From Streptosporangiales bacterium (GTDB lineage: Bacteria > Actinomycetota > Actinomycetes > Streptosporangiales > WHST01), in contig WHST01000070.1 in assembly GCA_009379955.1 (NCBI GenBank), positions 1-35,071 on the forward strand: a stretch of 35,071 bases of DNA, read 5' to 3'. The position numbers and the translations under genes were made by a program. This document shows, piece after piece, positions 19,993-25,568 of the stretch (the stretch's first letter is position 1; each line of letters starts with the position of its first letter). The notes under the pieces were generated by a model. The model saw only the letters and a program-made list of their open reading frames with translations, did not search any database and was not told the DNA's origin.

Positions 19993-20448
19993 ATGCAGGC
20001 AATGACGCGGCACCTCATCGGTGCCGGATTCGGCGTTGTCGCCGTCCCGGTGCTGTTGGTGCTGTCCTGGTGGTCGGCGCGCGAGTACCAGCTGACCGTC
20101 CAGTTCTTCAGGCCCGGGCACGGCGCGTTGTTCCTGCTGTCGGTCGCGCTGGTCGGCGTCGTCGCGGGCGTGCTCTGCGCCGGGCGTTTCGTCTCGCCCG
20201 TCGCGTCGGTCGTGGCCGGCGGGGTGCTGCTGGTGATCAACCTCATGGTCTGGGCGCCGCTCGCGCTGCGCATCGGCGGACGTCTCGAACTCAACGGTTT
20301 CCTCTTCAGGGCGGTCGGTCTCGTGCCCACCCTGCTCGCGCTCTCGTTCGTCCTGCTGACCGCGAGCGCCTTCCCGTCCCGCTGGGTCGGCGAGCGCTCC
20401 CGGCCGGCTCCTCGTCCTCTCCCTGCACAGGAGGTGCAGCGTCCATGA
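19993..20448 (+). CDS. Four-helix membrane protein, unknown function
   Basis: 151 residues with about four hydrophobic segments (near 8-26, 45-64, 68-90 and 105-124) and a Pro/Arg-rich C-terminus. No family recognised. ATG 19993 and ATG 20002 are both possible; AAGGAG lies about 12 and 21 nt upstream respectively. It overlaps the next gene as ATGA, so the two are coupled. Confidence 0.65.
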   Translation: MQAMTRHLIGAGFGVVAVPVLLVLSWWSAREYQLTVQFFRPGHGALFLLSVALVGVVAGVLCAGRFVSPVASVVAGGVLLVINLMVWAPLALRIGGRLELNGFLFRAVGLVPTLLALSFVLLTASAFPSRWVGERSRPAPRPLPAQEVQRP

Positions 20449-21197
20449 GGCACTTCGCGGGCGTCCTGCTCGGAATCATCCTCGTCCCGGTCTTCTTCAC
20501 CCTGAACTGGCTGGTCAACTACGCGGGCGACAGGGTCGCCGACGACCAGGGCCGGATGTGGCTGCTGCTGCTCCTCGGCGCGTACGCGGTGATGGGGCTG
20601 CTCGTGGCGATCTTCCTCGCCTCGCGGTCGATCTCCGCGATCTCGCTGATCATCGGCGGGCTGCTGATCGCGGCGGCCGAAGTCCTGCTGCTGCTGCCGG
20701 CGCTCGCCGACATCGAGGTCAACCTCCCGCGGCTGTACGACTACCCGAACATCACCGACGGCTACCTGCTGGTGGCGGTCGGGGTCGCGCTGCTGTTCGG
20801 TGGCCTGTTCCCGACCCGGTGGGCACGGCCGAAGCCGGTCGACGAGGACGAGGACCTGCCGGTCCGCGGCTCCTCCCTGCTGCCCGGTGACGAGCGCGGC
20901 CGCGACGCCGACTACGACTCGTCGTGGGGCTCGGGTCGCAACGAGTACGCCGAGGAGCCCGAGGCGCCGTACACCCAGGGCGGGCGCTACGACGAGCCGC
21001 AGACCCGGCAGTTCTCGGCATCCGGCGGCGAGCAGCACCACGAGGGCGAGCCCGCCACCCAGCCGGGACAGTACGACCAGTCGCAGCCGTCGTACGACTA
21101 CGACCAGGGCCAGGAGCAGACGTACCGGTCCTCGGACTACGGCGACTACCAACAGCAGCCGGGCCAGTACGACCGGCCGCCCGCCGACCGGTCCTGA
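20445..21197 (+). CDS. Membrane protein with long acidic Q/Y-rich tail, unknown function
   Basis: 250 residues. About four membrane helices occupy residues 1-125, similar in layout to the preceding protein. From about 130 on the chain is hydrophilic and disordered, rich in Asp, Glu, Tyr, Gln and Ser, with QPGQYDQSQPSYDYDQGQ and QQPGQYDRPP units. AGGAGG lies about 10 nt upstream of ATG 20445. The two genes look like a duplicated pair in which the second gained a tail. Confidence 0.68.
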   Translation: MRHFAGVLLGIILVPVFFTLNWLVNYAGDRVADDQGRMWLLLLLGAYAVMGLLVAIFLASRSISAISLIIGGLLIAAAEVLLLLPALADIEVNLPRLYDYPNITDGYLLVAVGVALLFGGLFPTRWARPKPVDEDEDLPVRGSSLLPGDERGRDADYDSSWGSGRNEYAEEPEAPYTQGGRYDEPQTRQFSASGGEQHHEGEPATQPGQYDQSQPSYDYDQGQEQTYRSSDYGDYQQQPGQYDRPPADRS

Positions 21198-21290
21198 CCC
21201 GCTCCAACACCCCGGCGCGCCGTCCGTCTTCCTCCCCGTAGCGCAGCGGCGGGAGGATCATGCTCCTGCCCGATTCGTGAGGAGCGAGAC

Positions 21291-22235
21291 ATGACCGACG
21301 CGCGGCCCACCGGGGTGGTCGAGGGGGTCCCCCTGCTCGACCTGTCCCACGTCGCCTCCGAGGACGACCTCGACTTCCTGTCCTCCATCGAGAAGGTCGC
21401 GGTCGTGGTGGTGCCTGAGCACCTCGTCGCCGCGCTGCATCGCATCCCGATGCGCAAGGTGGCGAGCATCGTCGCGGTGCCGCAGGGTGCGAACGTCCGC
21501 ATGCACACCGGCTCGCTCATGGTCGGCGGCGAGGGTCTCGCCGAACCTGGCGGCGACAACGAGGTGCTCGTCGTGACCGGTGCCCTGATCGTCACGAGTC
21601 CCGTGACCAGCGTGGGGTACCGGCAGATCGTCGTCACCGGCCTCGTCCTCGCGCCGCGCGGCAGCGAGTCCGCGCTGGGCTCGGGTCTCACCAGCGTCAC
21701 CGGAGGGGTCGTCTACTACCGGTACGCGGAGGGCCAGGAGCTCCGGCAGTACTCCGGCACCGTCAAGGTGAGCGGGGCGACCCTGGCCAACCAGGGCGGG
21801 ACGCCGGACGACGTGCTCGTCGCCGCCGGCCAGCTCATCGTGACCGGTCCGGTCACCGAGGTGGGCTACCAGCAGATCGTCCTCGCCGGGCAGCTGCTGG
21901 CCCCCCGCGACAGCGAGGCGTCCATCGCGCCCGCACTGATGGTGCAGGGCCAGGTGGCCTGGTACTCCGGCGATCCACGCTTCCTCGTCGGCGACGAGAC
22001 GTACGGTCGTGCCTTCTTCGAGATGCTCGACGGACCGCAGGAGCTCGCCATCCTCGGCGACGTGACGATCGAGGACGACGGCCTCACCCCCGAGCTGCTG
22101 CGGGAGAAGATCTCCGACCTCACGCTCGTGGGCCGCCTCACGGCGCCGAAGGCGCTCGTACCGGCGTTCCAGGTGCTCGCGACCGAGAAGCTTGGCGAGA
22201 TCAGGGCGAGCGACGGTGGCACGGAGCCGCGGTGA
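21291..22235 (+). CDS. Repeat-containing protein upstream of an ECF sigma factor, possibly beta-helical
   Basis: 314 residues, no signal peptide or membrane helix. The core contains two similar units about 82 residues apart (near 72-128 and 154-210). Matching stretches are VLVVTGALIVTSPVTSVGY with VLVAAGQLIVTGPVTEVGY, and QIVVTGLVLAPRGSES with QIVLAGQLLAPRDSEA. Short beta-strand repeats of this kind suggest a beta-helix or bactofilin-like fold (inference). The N-terminal SHVASEDDLDFLSSIEKVAVVVVP and C-terminal FLVGDETYGRAFFEMLDGPQELAILG segments are unfamiliar. Ribosome binding site AGGAG lies just upstream of ATG 21291. Its end overlaps the ECF sigma gene by 20 bp, so it is probably a partner, sensor or target of that sigma factor. 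Confidence 0.72.
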   Translation: MTDARPTGVVEGVPLLDLSHVASEDDLDFLSSIEKVAVVVVPEHLVAALHRIPMRKVASIVAVPQGANVRMHTGSLMVGGEGLAEPGGDNEVLVVTGALIVTSPVTSVGYRQIVVTGLVLAPRGSESALGSGLTSVTGGVVYYRYAEGQELRQYSGTVKVSGATLANQGGTPDDVLVAAGQLIVTGPVTEVGYQQIVLAGQLLAPRDSEASIAPALMVQGQVAWYSGDPRFLVGDETYGRAFFEMLDGPQELAILGDVTIEDDGLTPELLREKISDLTLVGRLTAPKALVPAFQVLATEKLGEIRASDGGTEPR

Positions 22236-22770
22236 CGACGAGCGGGCGTTCGGGGAGCTCTTCGACGAGCACCGCCCGGGCGTCTTCGCGTACCTGGTGG
22301 GCAGGGTGAGCGACAGGGACTGGGCGGGCGACCTGCTGCAGGACGTCTTCCTGCGGGCGTGGCGCCGGCTCGACGAGATCCGTGACCTGCCGGTCGAGCG
22401 GCAGCGCGCGTGGATCTTCACGGTGGCGAAGAACCTCGTCACCGACGCGTACCGCTCGCGCGCGACCCGCGCGGCGACGATGTCGACGTTGCGACAGACC
22501 GCGGAGACCGCCGCTCCCTGTCACGACGAGCCGGCGTCCCGGGTGGAGGCCGCCGAACGGGTGTCCGCGGTGGCGTCGGCCGTCCGGCAACTGCCCGACG
22601 AGCTGCGCGTCATCGTCACGATGAACGCCGTCGGCGAGCTGACGAGCGCGCAGATCGGGGAGGCGCTGGGCCAGCCGGCGGGCACGATCAGGTACAAGCT
22701 CTCGCTCGCGCGTCGCAGGCTGGCCGAGATCCTCGAGACGCACGCACCGACGGCAGTGGAGGCACGATGA
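22216..22770 (+). CDS. ECF-type RNA polymerase sigma factor
   Basis: 184 residues. Sigma-2 spans AFGELFDEHRPGVFAYLVGRVSDRDWAGDLLQDVFLRAWRRLDE with WIFTVAKNLVTDAYRSR. Sigma-4 is VRQLPDELRVIVTMNAVGELTSAQIGEALGQPAGTIRYKLSLARRRL. GTG 22216 lies inside the end of the upstream gene (20-bp overlap) and gives a normal N-terminus; upstream in-frame starts are less likely. Its stop overlaps the next small gene as ATGA. No membrane-bound anti-sigma factor is adjacent, so the neighbours on either side are the candidate regulators. Confidence 0.88.
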   Translation: MARSRGDDERAFGELFDEHRPGVFAYLVGRVSDRDWAGDLLQDVFLRAWRRLDEIRDLPVERQRAWIFTVAKNLVTDAYRSRATRAATMSTLRQTAETAAPCHDEPASRVEAAERVSAVASAVRQLPDELRVIVTMNAVGELTSAQIGEALGQPAGTIRYKLSLARRRLAEILETHAPTAVEAR

Positions 22771-23003
22771 CCGACAACGCGGACAACCTCGATGCGATGC
22801 TCGGCGGCTGGGCCGCATCGGTGCGGCTCTCCGACACCGAGGCAGACACGATCAGGCAGGCCGTCGTCGCCGTGCCGGTTCCCGCGGCAGTTCCGCCGGT
22901 CACGACGTCGCTCTCGCCGTCGTGGTGGACGGACTTCTCGATGCAGATCAGCGCCGTCATGGTCGACGCCGGCCGCGCCGGCGCCGCGCCGTTCGCGGCC
23001 TAG
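22767..23003 (+). CDS. 78-residue protein coupled to the ECF sigma factor
   Basis: Starts at ATG 22767 in an ATGA overlap with the sigma gene. The sequence begins MTDNADNLDAMLGGWAASVRLSDTEAD and has a Pro/Val-rich middle followed by WWTDFSMQISAVMVDAGR. It lacks an obvious membrane helix and a zinc-binding HxxxCxxC motif, so it is not a standard zinc anti-sigma factor. The position suggests a small soluble anti-sigma or co-factor (inference). It ends 2 bp before the convergent nuoD stop. Confidence 0.6.
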   Translation: MTDNADNLDAMLGGWAASVRLSDTEADTIRQAVVAVPVPAAVPPVTTSLSPSWWTDFSMQISAVMVDAGRAGAAPFAA

Positions 23004-23005
23004 TG

Positions 23006-24199
23006 TTACCTGTCGATGTCGCCGACGACGAAGAAGAGCGAGCCGAGCACCGCGATCATGTCGGCGACCAGGCAGCCGGGCAGGATCTCCGCGAGCACCT
23101 GGACGTTGTTGAACGACGCCGAGCGCAGCTTCATCCGCCACGGTGTCTTCTCGCCGCGCGACACCAGGTAGTAGCCGTTGATGCCGAGCGGGTTCTCGGT
23201 CCAGGCGTACGTCTCGCCCTCCGGCACCTTGAGCACCTTGGGCAGCCGTTGGTTGATCGGCCCGCGAGGCAGGCCGCGCAGGCGCACGACGCAGGCGTCG
23301 ACGAGGTCGAGCGACACGTGCGCCTGGTCGAGCAGGCAGCGGAACCTCGCGCGCGCGTCACCCTCCTCGCGGACGACCACCCGCCCCGGACCTCCTGGCG
23401 CGAACAGCTCGCCGTACGCGAGGTACGGCTCGTCGCGCCGCAGGTCGAAGTCGACGCCGGACGCGCGGGCGACCGGACCGCTGACGCCGTACTGGTGGAC
23501 GGTCTCGGGCGTCAGGACGCCGATGCCCTTCGTGCGGGCCAGGAAGATCTCGTTGCCGACGATGATGTTCTCGAGGTCGGGTAGCCGCGCGCGCACCGCG
23601 CGCACCGTCTCGGCGACCCGGTCGAGCCAACCGGCGGGCAGGTCCTCCTTGAGGCCGCCGACCCGGTTGAACATGTAGTGCATGCGGCCGCCGGAGACCT
23701 CCTCCATCACGCGCTGGATCGCCTCGCGCTCGCGGAACGCGTAGAACATCGGCGTGATGGCGCCCATCTCCAGCGGGTAGGCGCCGAGGAACATCAGGTG
23801 GTTGAGGACGCGGTTGAGCTCGGCGAGCAGCGTGCGCGCCCACGTCGCGCGCTCGGGTACCTCCATGCCGAGCATGCGCTCGACCGCGAGCACGACGCCG
23901 AGTTCGCTGGAGAACGCGGACAGCCAGTCGTGCCGGTTGGCGAGCACGATGATCTGCCGGTAGTCGCGCACCTCGAACAGCTTCTCCGCGCCTCGGTGCA
24001 TGTAGCCGATGACGGGATCGGCCGACACGATGCGCTCGCCGTCGAGGGTGACGACGAGCCGCAGGACGCCGTGGGTGGACGGATGCTGCGGACCGATGTT
24101 CAGCGTCATCTCGGTCGTCGTGAGCCCACCCGCGCCCGCGCCGACGCCGACGACGCGGGTCGTGGTGTCGGGGGAGTCCGGTGGGGTCGGGGCGTTCAT
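23006..24199 (-). CDS. nuoD: NADH-quinone oxidoreductase subunit D (orphan copy)
   Basis: 397 residues of the 49-kDa complex I subunit family. Seen motifs include [100 protein letters not shown] and the C-terminal [24 protein letters not shown]. In a full complex it helps form the quinone site with NuoB. No other nuo gene is adjacent, so it is either a second nuoD copy or a displaced one. ATG 24199 gives the usual N-terminus; the frame is open to 24271 but enters the divergent gene. Convergent with the sigma cassette. Confidence 0.9.
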
Positions 24200-24206
24200 C
24201 GGACCC

Positions 24207-24230
24207 CATGGTGCCACCATTGGGTGCCAT
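24207..24230. promoter_or_regulatory. Short divergent start region with GGTGCCA repeats
   Basis: Only 29 bp separate the nuoD start (24199) from the next gene's ATG (24229). It contains the perfect palindrome ATGGTG-C-CACCAT (24208-24220) and a second GGTGCCA copy (24223-24229), in direct repeat with the first (24210-24216). The spacing leaves no room for two full promoters, so at least one must extend into the opposite gene. Confidence 0.3.
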
Positions 24231-24849
24231 GACACAGGGTCCGGGGCAGCCGCCCGCGCGCCCGCGGCCACTCGTCGACCCGGCGGAGCTGCGTCCGCGC
24301 CGCCGCATGTACTGGGTCGGCCTCAGCATCTTCACCGTCACCCTCGTGGTCGGCATCACCGTCGGCGTCGTCCTGGTCAAGGGATTCGTCGCGAATACCA
24401 GGGACTTCCAGGGGCTCACCAACGGCGCCCCGTCCACCGTCTCGCTCCCGGCCGGCGACGAGAAGATCCTCTACGCCGCCGGCGGCGATGTCGAGCCGTT
24501 CGACGAGCCGCCCGACTGCGAGTTCGACGGTCCCGGCGACGTCCGCCTCACCGACCTCCACGGCAGCAGCACCCTCGAGCTCGAGGATGAGGTCTGGAGC
24601 GGCATCGCGGGCATCCACGTCTCGGCGGCCGGCGACTACACCGTCACCTGCCCCGCGTCCGGCGACGTCAGGTACGGCATCGGCAACAGGATCGGTGGCA
24701 TGCTCGCCCAGGGGTTCGGCGCGGCCGGAGCGTTCCTCGTGCTGCCCGGCATCGGCTTCGTCGTCGGCGGTACCATCGCGCTCGTGACGCTTGTCGGTCG
24801 TAACGGGCACCGCAACAGGATCCTGCGGCAACGAACCCCGAAGCCGTGA
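24229..24849 (+). CDS. Membrane protein with external beta-type domain, unknown function (paralogue 1)
   Basis: 206 residues. A Pro/Arg-rich N-terminus, one helix (about 28-50), an external domain (about 51-150) holding the segments [14 protein letters not shown] and [20 protein letters not shown] with two cysteines, then a second helix (about 163-188). Same layout as the next gene, so the two are probably paralogues. No known family. The start ATG 24229 follows the nuoD start by 29 bp on the opposite strand. Confidence 0.68.
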
Positions 24850-25568
24850 ACGCGGCCCCCGCAGGCATCGACTCGCGTGCCGTCAGGCCCACGCGTGTCT
24901 GGTACCTCATCGCCGCGATCGTCGCCGTGGTCGCGATCGCCGTACCCGTCGTGCTGCTAGTCGTCAGCCAGCTCACGGCGCCCAAGGTCGAGGAGATCAA
25001 CCTCGGATCCGACACCAAGCGGATGGTCGCGAAGGAGGTGAAGTGGCTCTACGCCACCAAGCCCAAGGGACTGGTCCCTCCGCTGTGCAAGGTCGACGGG
25101 CCGGCCGACGTCCACGTCAAGCCACTCACGAGCCTGGACACGACGACGTACGAGGGCACGACCTGGTACGCCGTCGCGCAGGTCACCGTCGACGCCACCG
25201 GCGACTACTCGATCCAGTGCCTCAGCACGATGAAGGGTCTCCGGGCCGGGATCGGCGGTGAGCCCGCGAAGCAGCCCGGTCTCCTCTCGGGCCTCGTCCT
25301 GAAGTGGGTCGTCCCGGTCGTCGGTGTCGTCGCCGCGGCCGTCGTCGCACTGGTCACGTTCCTGCGCAGGCGATCACACCGGGCCGGCATGCTCGCCGCG
25401 GCGTCGCACGGCTCCTGGTACGACCAGCAGGGTGGCGGCCAGTACCCGCAGCACGGCCAGTATCCGCAGGGCCAGTACCCGCAGCAGGGTCAGTACCCCC
25501 AGCAGGGCCAGTATCCGCAGCAGGGTGGGCAGCCGCCATATGGTCAGCAGCCGCCGTACGGGTACTGA
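24846..25568 (+). CDS. Membrane protein with beta-type domain and QYPQQG tail (paralogue 2)
   Basis: 240 residues. GTG 24846 overlaps the previous stop (GTGA). Helix at about 18-44, external domain ending ATGDYSIQCLSTMKGLRAGIG (compare [18 protein letters not shown] in the previous protein), second helix about 146-170, then a basic stretch and a disordered tail from about 185. The tail repeats QYPQQG or close variants about six times before PPYGQQPPYGY. The external domains keep two cysteines each, possibly a disulfide. Confidence 0.7.
   Translation: MNAAPAGIDSRAVRPTRVWYLIAAIVAVVAIAVPVVLLVVSQLTAPKVEEINLGSDTKRMVAKEVKWLYATKPKGLVPPLCKVDGPADVHVKPLTSLDTTTYEGTTWYAVAQVTVDATGDYSIQCLSTMKGLRAGIGGEPAKQPGLLSGLVLKWVVPVVGVVAAAVVALVTFLRRRSHRAGMLAAASHGSWYDQQGGGQYPQHGQYPQGQYPQQGQYPQQGQYPQQGGQPPYGQQPPYGY

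Follow-up and report, generated by a model that had tools for sequence, protein, structure and literature searches.

A conserved three-gene ECF sigma factor cassette of Actinomycetota encoding a predicted solenoid protein and a candidate soluble anti-sigma factor

Described ECF systems and the three-gene cassette

ECF sigma factors are a major route of signalling in bacteria. The gene for an anti-sigma factor usually follows that for its sigma factor, as in Escherichia coli, in which rseA lies 3' of rpoE, and RslA is the anti-sigma partner of SigL. According to the available part of one review (PMC8103513), the marks by which ECF sigma factors were first defined are promoters with AAC and CGT elements, an anti-sigma factor encoded in the same transcript, and a positive effect on their own transcription, and membrane anti-sigma factors restrain 74% of those whose control is known. 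The class I anti-sigma domain, as described in excerpts of another source (PMC7406223), places helices 1 to 3 on sigma region 4 and, past a flexible linker, helix 4 on region 2, and helix 4 carries a conserved aromatic residue in some class I groups. Soluble anti-sigma factors without a zinc domain restrain the sigma factor in SigX-CfrX (ECF102) and EcfG-NepR (ECF15), and ECF286 and ECF292 are associated with Asp23-family proteins that are predicted anti-sigma factors (PMC8999054, in the sections available).

Here we describe a cassette of three genes, A, B, and C, on the forward strand of the window (the whole 35,071-nucleotide stretch of DNA analyzed, from a Streptosporangiales bacterium), in which A overlaps B by 20 bp and B overlaps C by 4 bp (Table 1). 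The initial annotation had placed three genes with these overlaps at 21291-23003, and its coordinates were confirmed. The cassette shares with RpoE-RseA and SigL-RslA a sigma factor that consists of regions 2 and 4 only with a short linker, an AAC/CGTC promoter before its own operon, and a small helical protein encoded directly after the sigma gene. Those systems have membrane or zinc class I anti-sigma factors, whereas C has no membrane segment, cysteine, or Pfam anti-sigma match, and the cassette has a solenoid gene ahead of the sigma gene. The role proposed for C resembles that described for NepR and CfrX. The further components differ: the response regulator PhyR takes part in EcfG-NepR, and a porin and an ion channel in SigX-CfrX (PMC8999054, sections available), whereas the third member of the cassette is a predicted cytoplasmic solenoid. 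Like the cassette, ECF286 and ECF292 pair a sigma factor with an unusual soluble protein whose role is unproven, but A and C have no Asp23 match in Pfam at the cutoffs used. A literature search, mostly of records without full texts, returned no description of such a module, and the accessible portions of two reviews that cover soluble anti-sigma systems (PMC8999054 and PMC8103513) include none with this composition. The module is discrete and strictly linked, two of its proteins are soluble and belong to no named family, and it offers a testable case of an uncharted control mechanism.

Table 1. Positions in the window of the cassette genes and of features within and before them
Feature	Position	Strand	Description
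Predicted ECF-type operon promoter	21204..21229	+	CCAAC-N16-CGTCT; -35 AAC, -10 CGTC
Six-codon leader ORF MLLPDS	21260..21280	+	Predicted ORF at the counterpart position of the Nitriliruptoria small basic ORF
Gene A	21291..22235	+	ATG start, 314 aa, predicted solenoid protein
First 57-residue repeat of A	21564..21734	+	Residues 92-148; 26/57 identical to second copy
Second 57-residue repeat of A	21813..21983	+	Residues 175-231; offset 83 from first
C-terminal coils of A	21972..22169	+	Residues 228-293; homologous to RHH_8 (PF17723) C-terminal half
Gene B	22216..22770	+	GTG start, 184 aa, ECF sigma factor
Sigma region 2 of B	22258..22464	+	Residues 15-83, PF04542
Sigma region 4 of B	22570..22722	+	Residues 119-169, PF08281
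Gene C	22767..23003	+	ATG start, 78 aa, soluble helical protein, candidate anti-sigma factor; overlap with B is ATGA
C-terminal helix of C	22917..22985	+	Residues 51-73; invariant Trp-Trp pair 53, 54

Protein B matched Sigma70_r2 (E value = 9.3e-14) and Sigma70_r4_2 (E value = 2.1e-10), with about 35 residues between the two. It therefore has regions 2 and 4 only and a linker of fewer than 50 residues, in agreement with its earlier designation as an ECF sigma factor, and the nearest solved relative of its family is the ECF sigma factor SigL (E value = 8.8e-24). On the 3' side of C, the next gene lies on the opposite strand and is 82 to 87% identical to genes in two relatives; we take it to be nuoD, and the absence of a membrane anti-sigma gene reported for the cassette stands. 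Because the genes after C differ among five loci compared by eye (the window, L010, L011, L015, and L016), the operon probably ends at C. In a genome of the same genus (G001), the genes that flank the cassette are adjacent to each other and the cassette is absent, and in a genome of the same order (G003), A, B, and C all lack a match at the corresponding place. The G+C content of the cassette is 71.3%, versus 71.8 and 72.1% in its surroundings. Two pairs of neighboring genes in the window, at 19993-21197 and 24181-25568, each match a single stretch of G001, which suggests that tandem duplications flank the cassette.

Distribution and conserved gene order

Protein A was found in seven genomes, the window's own (6.6 Mb, with 42 matches to sigma region 2) and six Nitriliruptoria, and the order A-B-C is kept in all seven, across two classes. 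The initial annotation had regarded a gene order not conserved in relatives as counting against a signalling module and had suggested a search across phyla; the order proved to be conserved, but all relatives found are Actinomycetota. Outside this phylum, coverage was by a pattern scan in which each of 84,980 species was represented by a single genome; it returned two relatives of A, both in MAGs of Nitriliruptoraceae (class Nitriliruptoria, phylum Actinomycetota) that are counted once, as G756 and G792. Profile searches placed A in four other genomes among 396 taken phylum-wide and, within the class to which G620 belongs (Nitriliruptoria), in 6 of 66 genomes. No A was found in 60 relatives, two of the same genus (single-protein search), in the other 393 genomes of the window's class (profile search; two weak matches were rejected), in the other 344 genomes searched of its order (three weak matches were RHH proteins), or in the viral contigs and plasmids searched. 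In the large sets, a part of the candidates was scored per genome (5 to 6 for A, 18 for C, and up to 53 for sigma factors), so distant relatives may have been missed.

Several candidate A loci were rejected. The frames of L012 and L021 are antisense to another gene and to a long ORF, respectively, and that of L013 lies, as judged by eye, inside an esterase-like ORF. L018, L019, L020, L022, L113, L114, and L115 are RHH proteins, and the two on which Pfam was run (L018 and L113) are RHH_8 members.

The coupling of the genes is similar among loci. On the assumed start codons, adjacent genes either overlap or are separated by no more than 3 bp in all seven loci (the sigma start is not fixed in L017). 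The overlap between A and the sigma gene is 11 to 20 bp in six of the seven; that between the sigma gene and C is 4 bp in three loci, and a gap of 2 to 3 bp separates these two genes in the other four. In the one-contig genome G522, A (L017, about 1139-2082) is split by a frameshift into two frames, which reflects either decay or a sequencing error; the sigma gene and C remain open there despite the split. In G792, A is interrupted by contig ends.

The sigma factor and C follow A in their distribution. Among the 66 Nitriliruptoria genomes, the B subfamily scored 277 to 288 bits in exactly the six that bear A; other sigma factors reached an E value of 1e-25 or better in three genomes, at 95 to 101 bits, so that the next best score was 101. 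Strong matches to C occurred in 4 of 296 genomes, all four A bearing (the sample may or may not include the remaining A-bearing genomes), and 27 further genomes had C matches with E values of 4.9e-4 or worse, which look like chance. Identity to the window's proteins is 50 to 56% for A (five relatives), 42 to 49% for B, and 32 to 42% for C. The window's A and B are slightly more distant from their relatives than these are among themselves, which is not so for C. The cassette is present in 6 of 66 Nitriliruptoria genomes and in 1 of 345 from the order of the window, a pattern that could reflect either gain through transfer or repeated loss.

Overall, the module is real, discrete, co-inherited, and compact, and it is more than a chance arrangement because gene order, sigma subfamily, and promoter are all conserved. 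The suggestion that it represents an undescribed signalling module is thus supported, with the order conserved in 7/7 genomes.

Promoter and search for a wider regulon

A predicted ECF-type promoter precedes the operon. The pattern CCAAC-N16-CGTC was first seen in five loci, every one of those with sufficient upstream sequence. A motif search added a sixth, on the contig bearing the start of the G792 operon, the last bases of which encode the start of the A protein, so that CCAAC-N14-TCCGTCT stands before the operon in 6/6 loci with enough upstream DNA. The motif was not found in the 122 bp available upstream in L025, and none is expected in the window by chance (100 shuffles). An AAC at -35 and a CGT at -10 of the predicted promoter before its own operon are as expected for an ECF sigma factor, and the conservation of this promoter makes it likely that B autoregulates the operon. 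The predicted promoter could go straight into a reporter construct.

A small basic ORF of 60 to 78 codons lies between the promoter and A in L011 (896-1102), L015, L016, L017, and L098, that is, in all five Nitriliruptoria loci readable there. It starts 48 to 64 bp after the first base of the motif, and the window's six-codon ORF starts at 56 bp and is possibly a remnant of it, as judged from its placement. The small basic ORF of L011 had no family match above chance.

A wider regulon was sought with the promoter pattern, which showed no consistent genome-wide excess over a reversed control in the window's genome and its six relatives. For CCAAC-N16-CGTCY, the window's genome has 33 sites versus 51 in the control; counts were also below the control in G482 (32 versus 59), G620 (36 versus 60), G522 (28 versus 40), and G756 (18 versus 35) and above it in G784 (32 versus 22) and G792 (39 versus 26). 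The stricter CCAAC-N14-TCCGTCY, searched in eight genomes, returned the promoter of the operon in G620 and in G792 and one more site in G792; G001 and G003 had two sites apiece, and the other four genomes had none; the reversed control gave 0 to 2 per genome. Among the sites listed for the window's genome, the strict form occurs at the operon and on contigs C35, C37, and C139. The C35 site (L092, G000:C35:16878-16903) shares 23 of 26 bases with the operon promoter and is followed by a small basic ORF, an HTH-like gene, and a transporter-like gene. It was rejected as a second target and judged a chance match: the ORF shows no detectable relationship to the Nitriliruptoria small ORFs (521 of 1,000 shuffles score equally), and the site lies, by eye, within an inverted repeat just past the preceding gene, which is presumably gcvT-like. 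The sites on C139 and on C67 of G784 were inspected and found unsupported.

Proteins A and C and proposed control of the sigma factor

Protein C, described initially as lacking zinc and membrane motifs, fits that description. No cysteine occurs in any of seven C proteins (the window's and six relatives), which leaves no cysteine site of the kind found in zinc anti-sigma factors, and the best 19-residue Kyte-Doolittle mean is 1.41 in the window's protein and 0.35 to 0.75 in the six relatives, with no transmembrane helix of the membrane anti-sigma type. Seven residues are common to all (L8, D9, L12, W15, L21, W53, and W54). A model built from three sequences, of modest confidence (pLDDT 65.8), has helices at 2-18, 23-35, and 51-73, and the linker before the last of these varies in length among the seven relatives. 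By this layout, C looks like a shortened class I anti-sigma domain; the class I domain has three helices, a linker, and helix 4, whereas the C model has three helices in all.

Sequence searches do not place C in a known family. None of the seven C proteins matched an anti-sigma family in Pfam (one matched a hydrolase family, with an E value of 0.24), the window's C had no NCBIfam or Pfam match, and its match in PHROG was weak and uncharacterized (E value = 0.015). Six weak matches to solved chains (best E value = 0.047) included no anti-sigma factor. A local match to E. coli RseA covers 11 aligned columns near the end of the RseA cytoplasmic part, a position that is suggestive; 13 of 300 shuffles were as good, and the hhalign probability of 0.6% is not significant. 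We therefore do not class C as a member of the class I anti-sigma domain, since the sequence match is missing.

Protein A contains the two 57-residue repeats noted initially, which are real: self-comparison gave 40 identities at an offset of 83 versus 18.0 expected (500 shuffles; 5.7 standard deviations). In an AlphaFold2 model from three sequences (pLDDT 85.3, pTM 0.79), strands of about 10 residues alternate with short helices or loops in about 13 coils, mostly 20 to 22 residues apart by our own reading of strand starts, and the 83-residue offset corresponds to four coils. The earlier suggestion of a beta-helix is to be modified accordingly: the protein is predicted to be a mixed solenoid of strands and short helices. 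The earlier proposal that it polymerizes is unsupported, as no bactofilin or other polymer-forming protein was matched by sequence; bactofilin matches (presumably family PF04519) were absent at an E value of 10 for the window's A and of 1 for six A proteins. A stack of short coils, as predicted for A, also occurs in leucine-rich-repeat and beta-helix proteins and in bactofilins, none of which matched A in sequence. Foldseek gave no match to solved or viral structures at an E value of 0.001 or better. VIA-align gave weak matches only. A phage adhesin tip was at the top (Z = 5.0); 77 residues matched an antifreeze beta-helix and 73 a leucine-rich-repeat chain, both with a Z of 4.2 (leucine-rich-repeat matches reached no higher), and the lack of matches above a Z of 5.0 does not establish a new fold.

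Profile comparison shows homology between the last coils of A and the C-terminal half of RHH_8 regulators (hhalign probability 93.8, E value = 1.8e-7, 35% identity over 66 columns), and PF17723 was matched by three of six A proteins (best E value = 4.5e-4), the window's A not among them. The alignment covers RHH residues 56-124 only, and no RHH_1 match was found by Pfam in the window's A or in the set of six A proteins. The N-terminal ribbon-helix-helix of RHH_8 regulators is missing from A, and A has about ten coils more than they do; with the DNA-binding half absent from its sequence, it is not classed as one of them. The window's A had no NCBIfam match and a single chance-level match in Pfam (E value = 1.1), and no anti-sigma or known antagonist family matched A in the sequence searches. 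The chance-level match, at 21435-21548 (A residues 49-86), is to PF21668, the RNA polymerase beta' hybrid domain, which three of six A proteins match weakly (best E value = 0.027); this is odd for a partner of a sigma factor and is probably chance.

The strict linkage and coupling of the genes make it plausible that the partner of the sigma factor is A or C, both candidates by position for the cotranscribed anti-sigma factor. The explanation we favor, at somewhat short of even chances, is that the cassette is an ECF module under positive autoregulation, with C serving as a minimal soluble anti-sigma factor and A as a sensor or scaffold in the cytoplasm. B would transcribe its own operon from the conserved CCAAC-N16-CGTC promoter. 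C, whose gene immediately follows the sigma gene, where an anti-sigma gene is canonically found, would be a minimal zinc-free anti-sigma factor; judging from its layout, its N-terminal helical hairpin might bind sigma region 4, and the Trp-Trp helix past the variable-length linker might bind region 2. A would sense a signal or act as a scaffold and so set whether C holds or releases B. Synthesis of the three proteins may be balanced, as expected from reading frames that overlap or nearly touch. The more specific proposal of a new ECF switch, in which an RHH_8-related cytoplasmic solenoid is the sensor or scaffold and controls the sigma factor jointly with a new minimal anti-sigma fold (C), is on balance doubtful.

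Because A is better conserved than B or C, it could be A, not C, that forms the core of the module. A would then itself be the anti-sigma factor or a sequestering scaffold that binds newly made sigma factor, with C as an accessory or effector. Beyond its conservation (50 to 56%, the highest of the three), A is encoded immediately 5' of the sigma gene, with frames overlapping in 6/7 loci, and shares a domain with transcription regulators (RHH_8); we nevertheless consider such a role rather unlikely, since an anti-sigma gene usually lies 3' of its sigma gene and A matched no anti-sigma family in the sequence searches. An unlikely explanation, somewhat less credible still, is that B has no protein inhibitor and is controlled at transcription only, with A and C as its output, such as a structural protein together with a partner. 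No convincing target other than the operon promoter was found, and some ECF sigma factors may be regulated at transcription alone (PMC8103513, available part), but strict three-gene linkage and coupling in 7/7 loci are what would be expected of a regulator and the protein it regulates, and a positive loop without a check would be prone to becoming locked on.

A two-step switch, in which C is the anti-sigma factor and A an anti-anti-sigma factor, or in which the Nitriliruptoria small basic protein is a further regulator, appears improbable. It would account for the presence of A in every case and of the basic ORF between promoter and A in the five readable Nitriliruptoria loci; however, the window's ORF has at most six codons, so such a protein would be dispensable there, and A matches no known antagonist family. 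Under the favored explanation, with C as the anti-sigma factor and A as sensor or scaffold, the module would connect the uncharacterized half of the RHH_8 family to sigma control.

RHH_8-type regulators that share the C-terminal coils were also seen, by eye, in other settings, with L018 and L115 beside a depolymerase-like esterase gene and L113 and L114 beside an ABC transporter.
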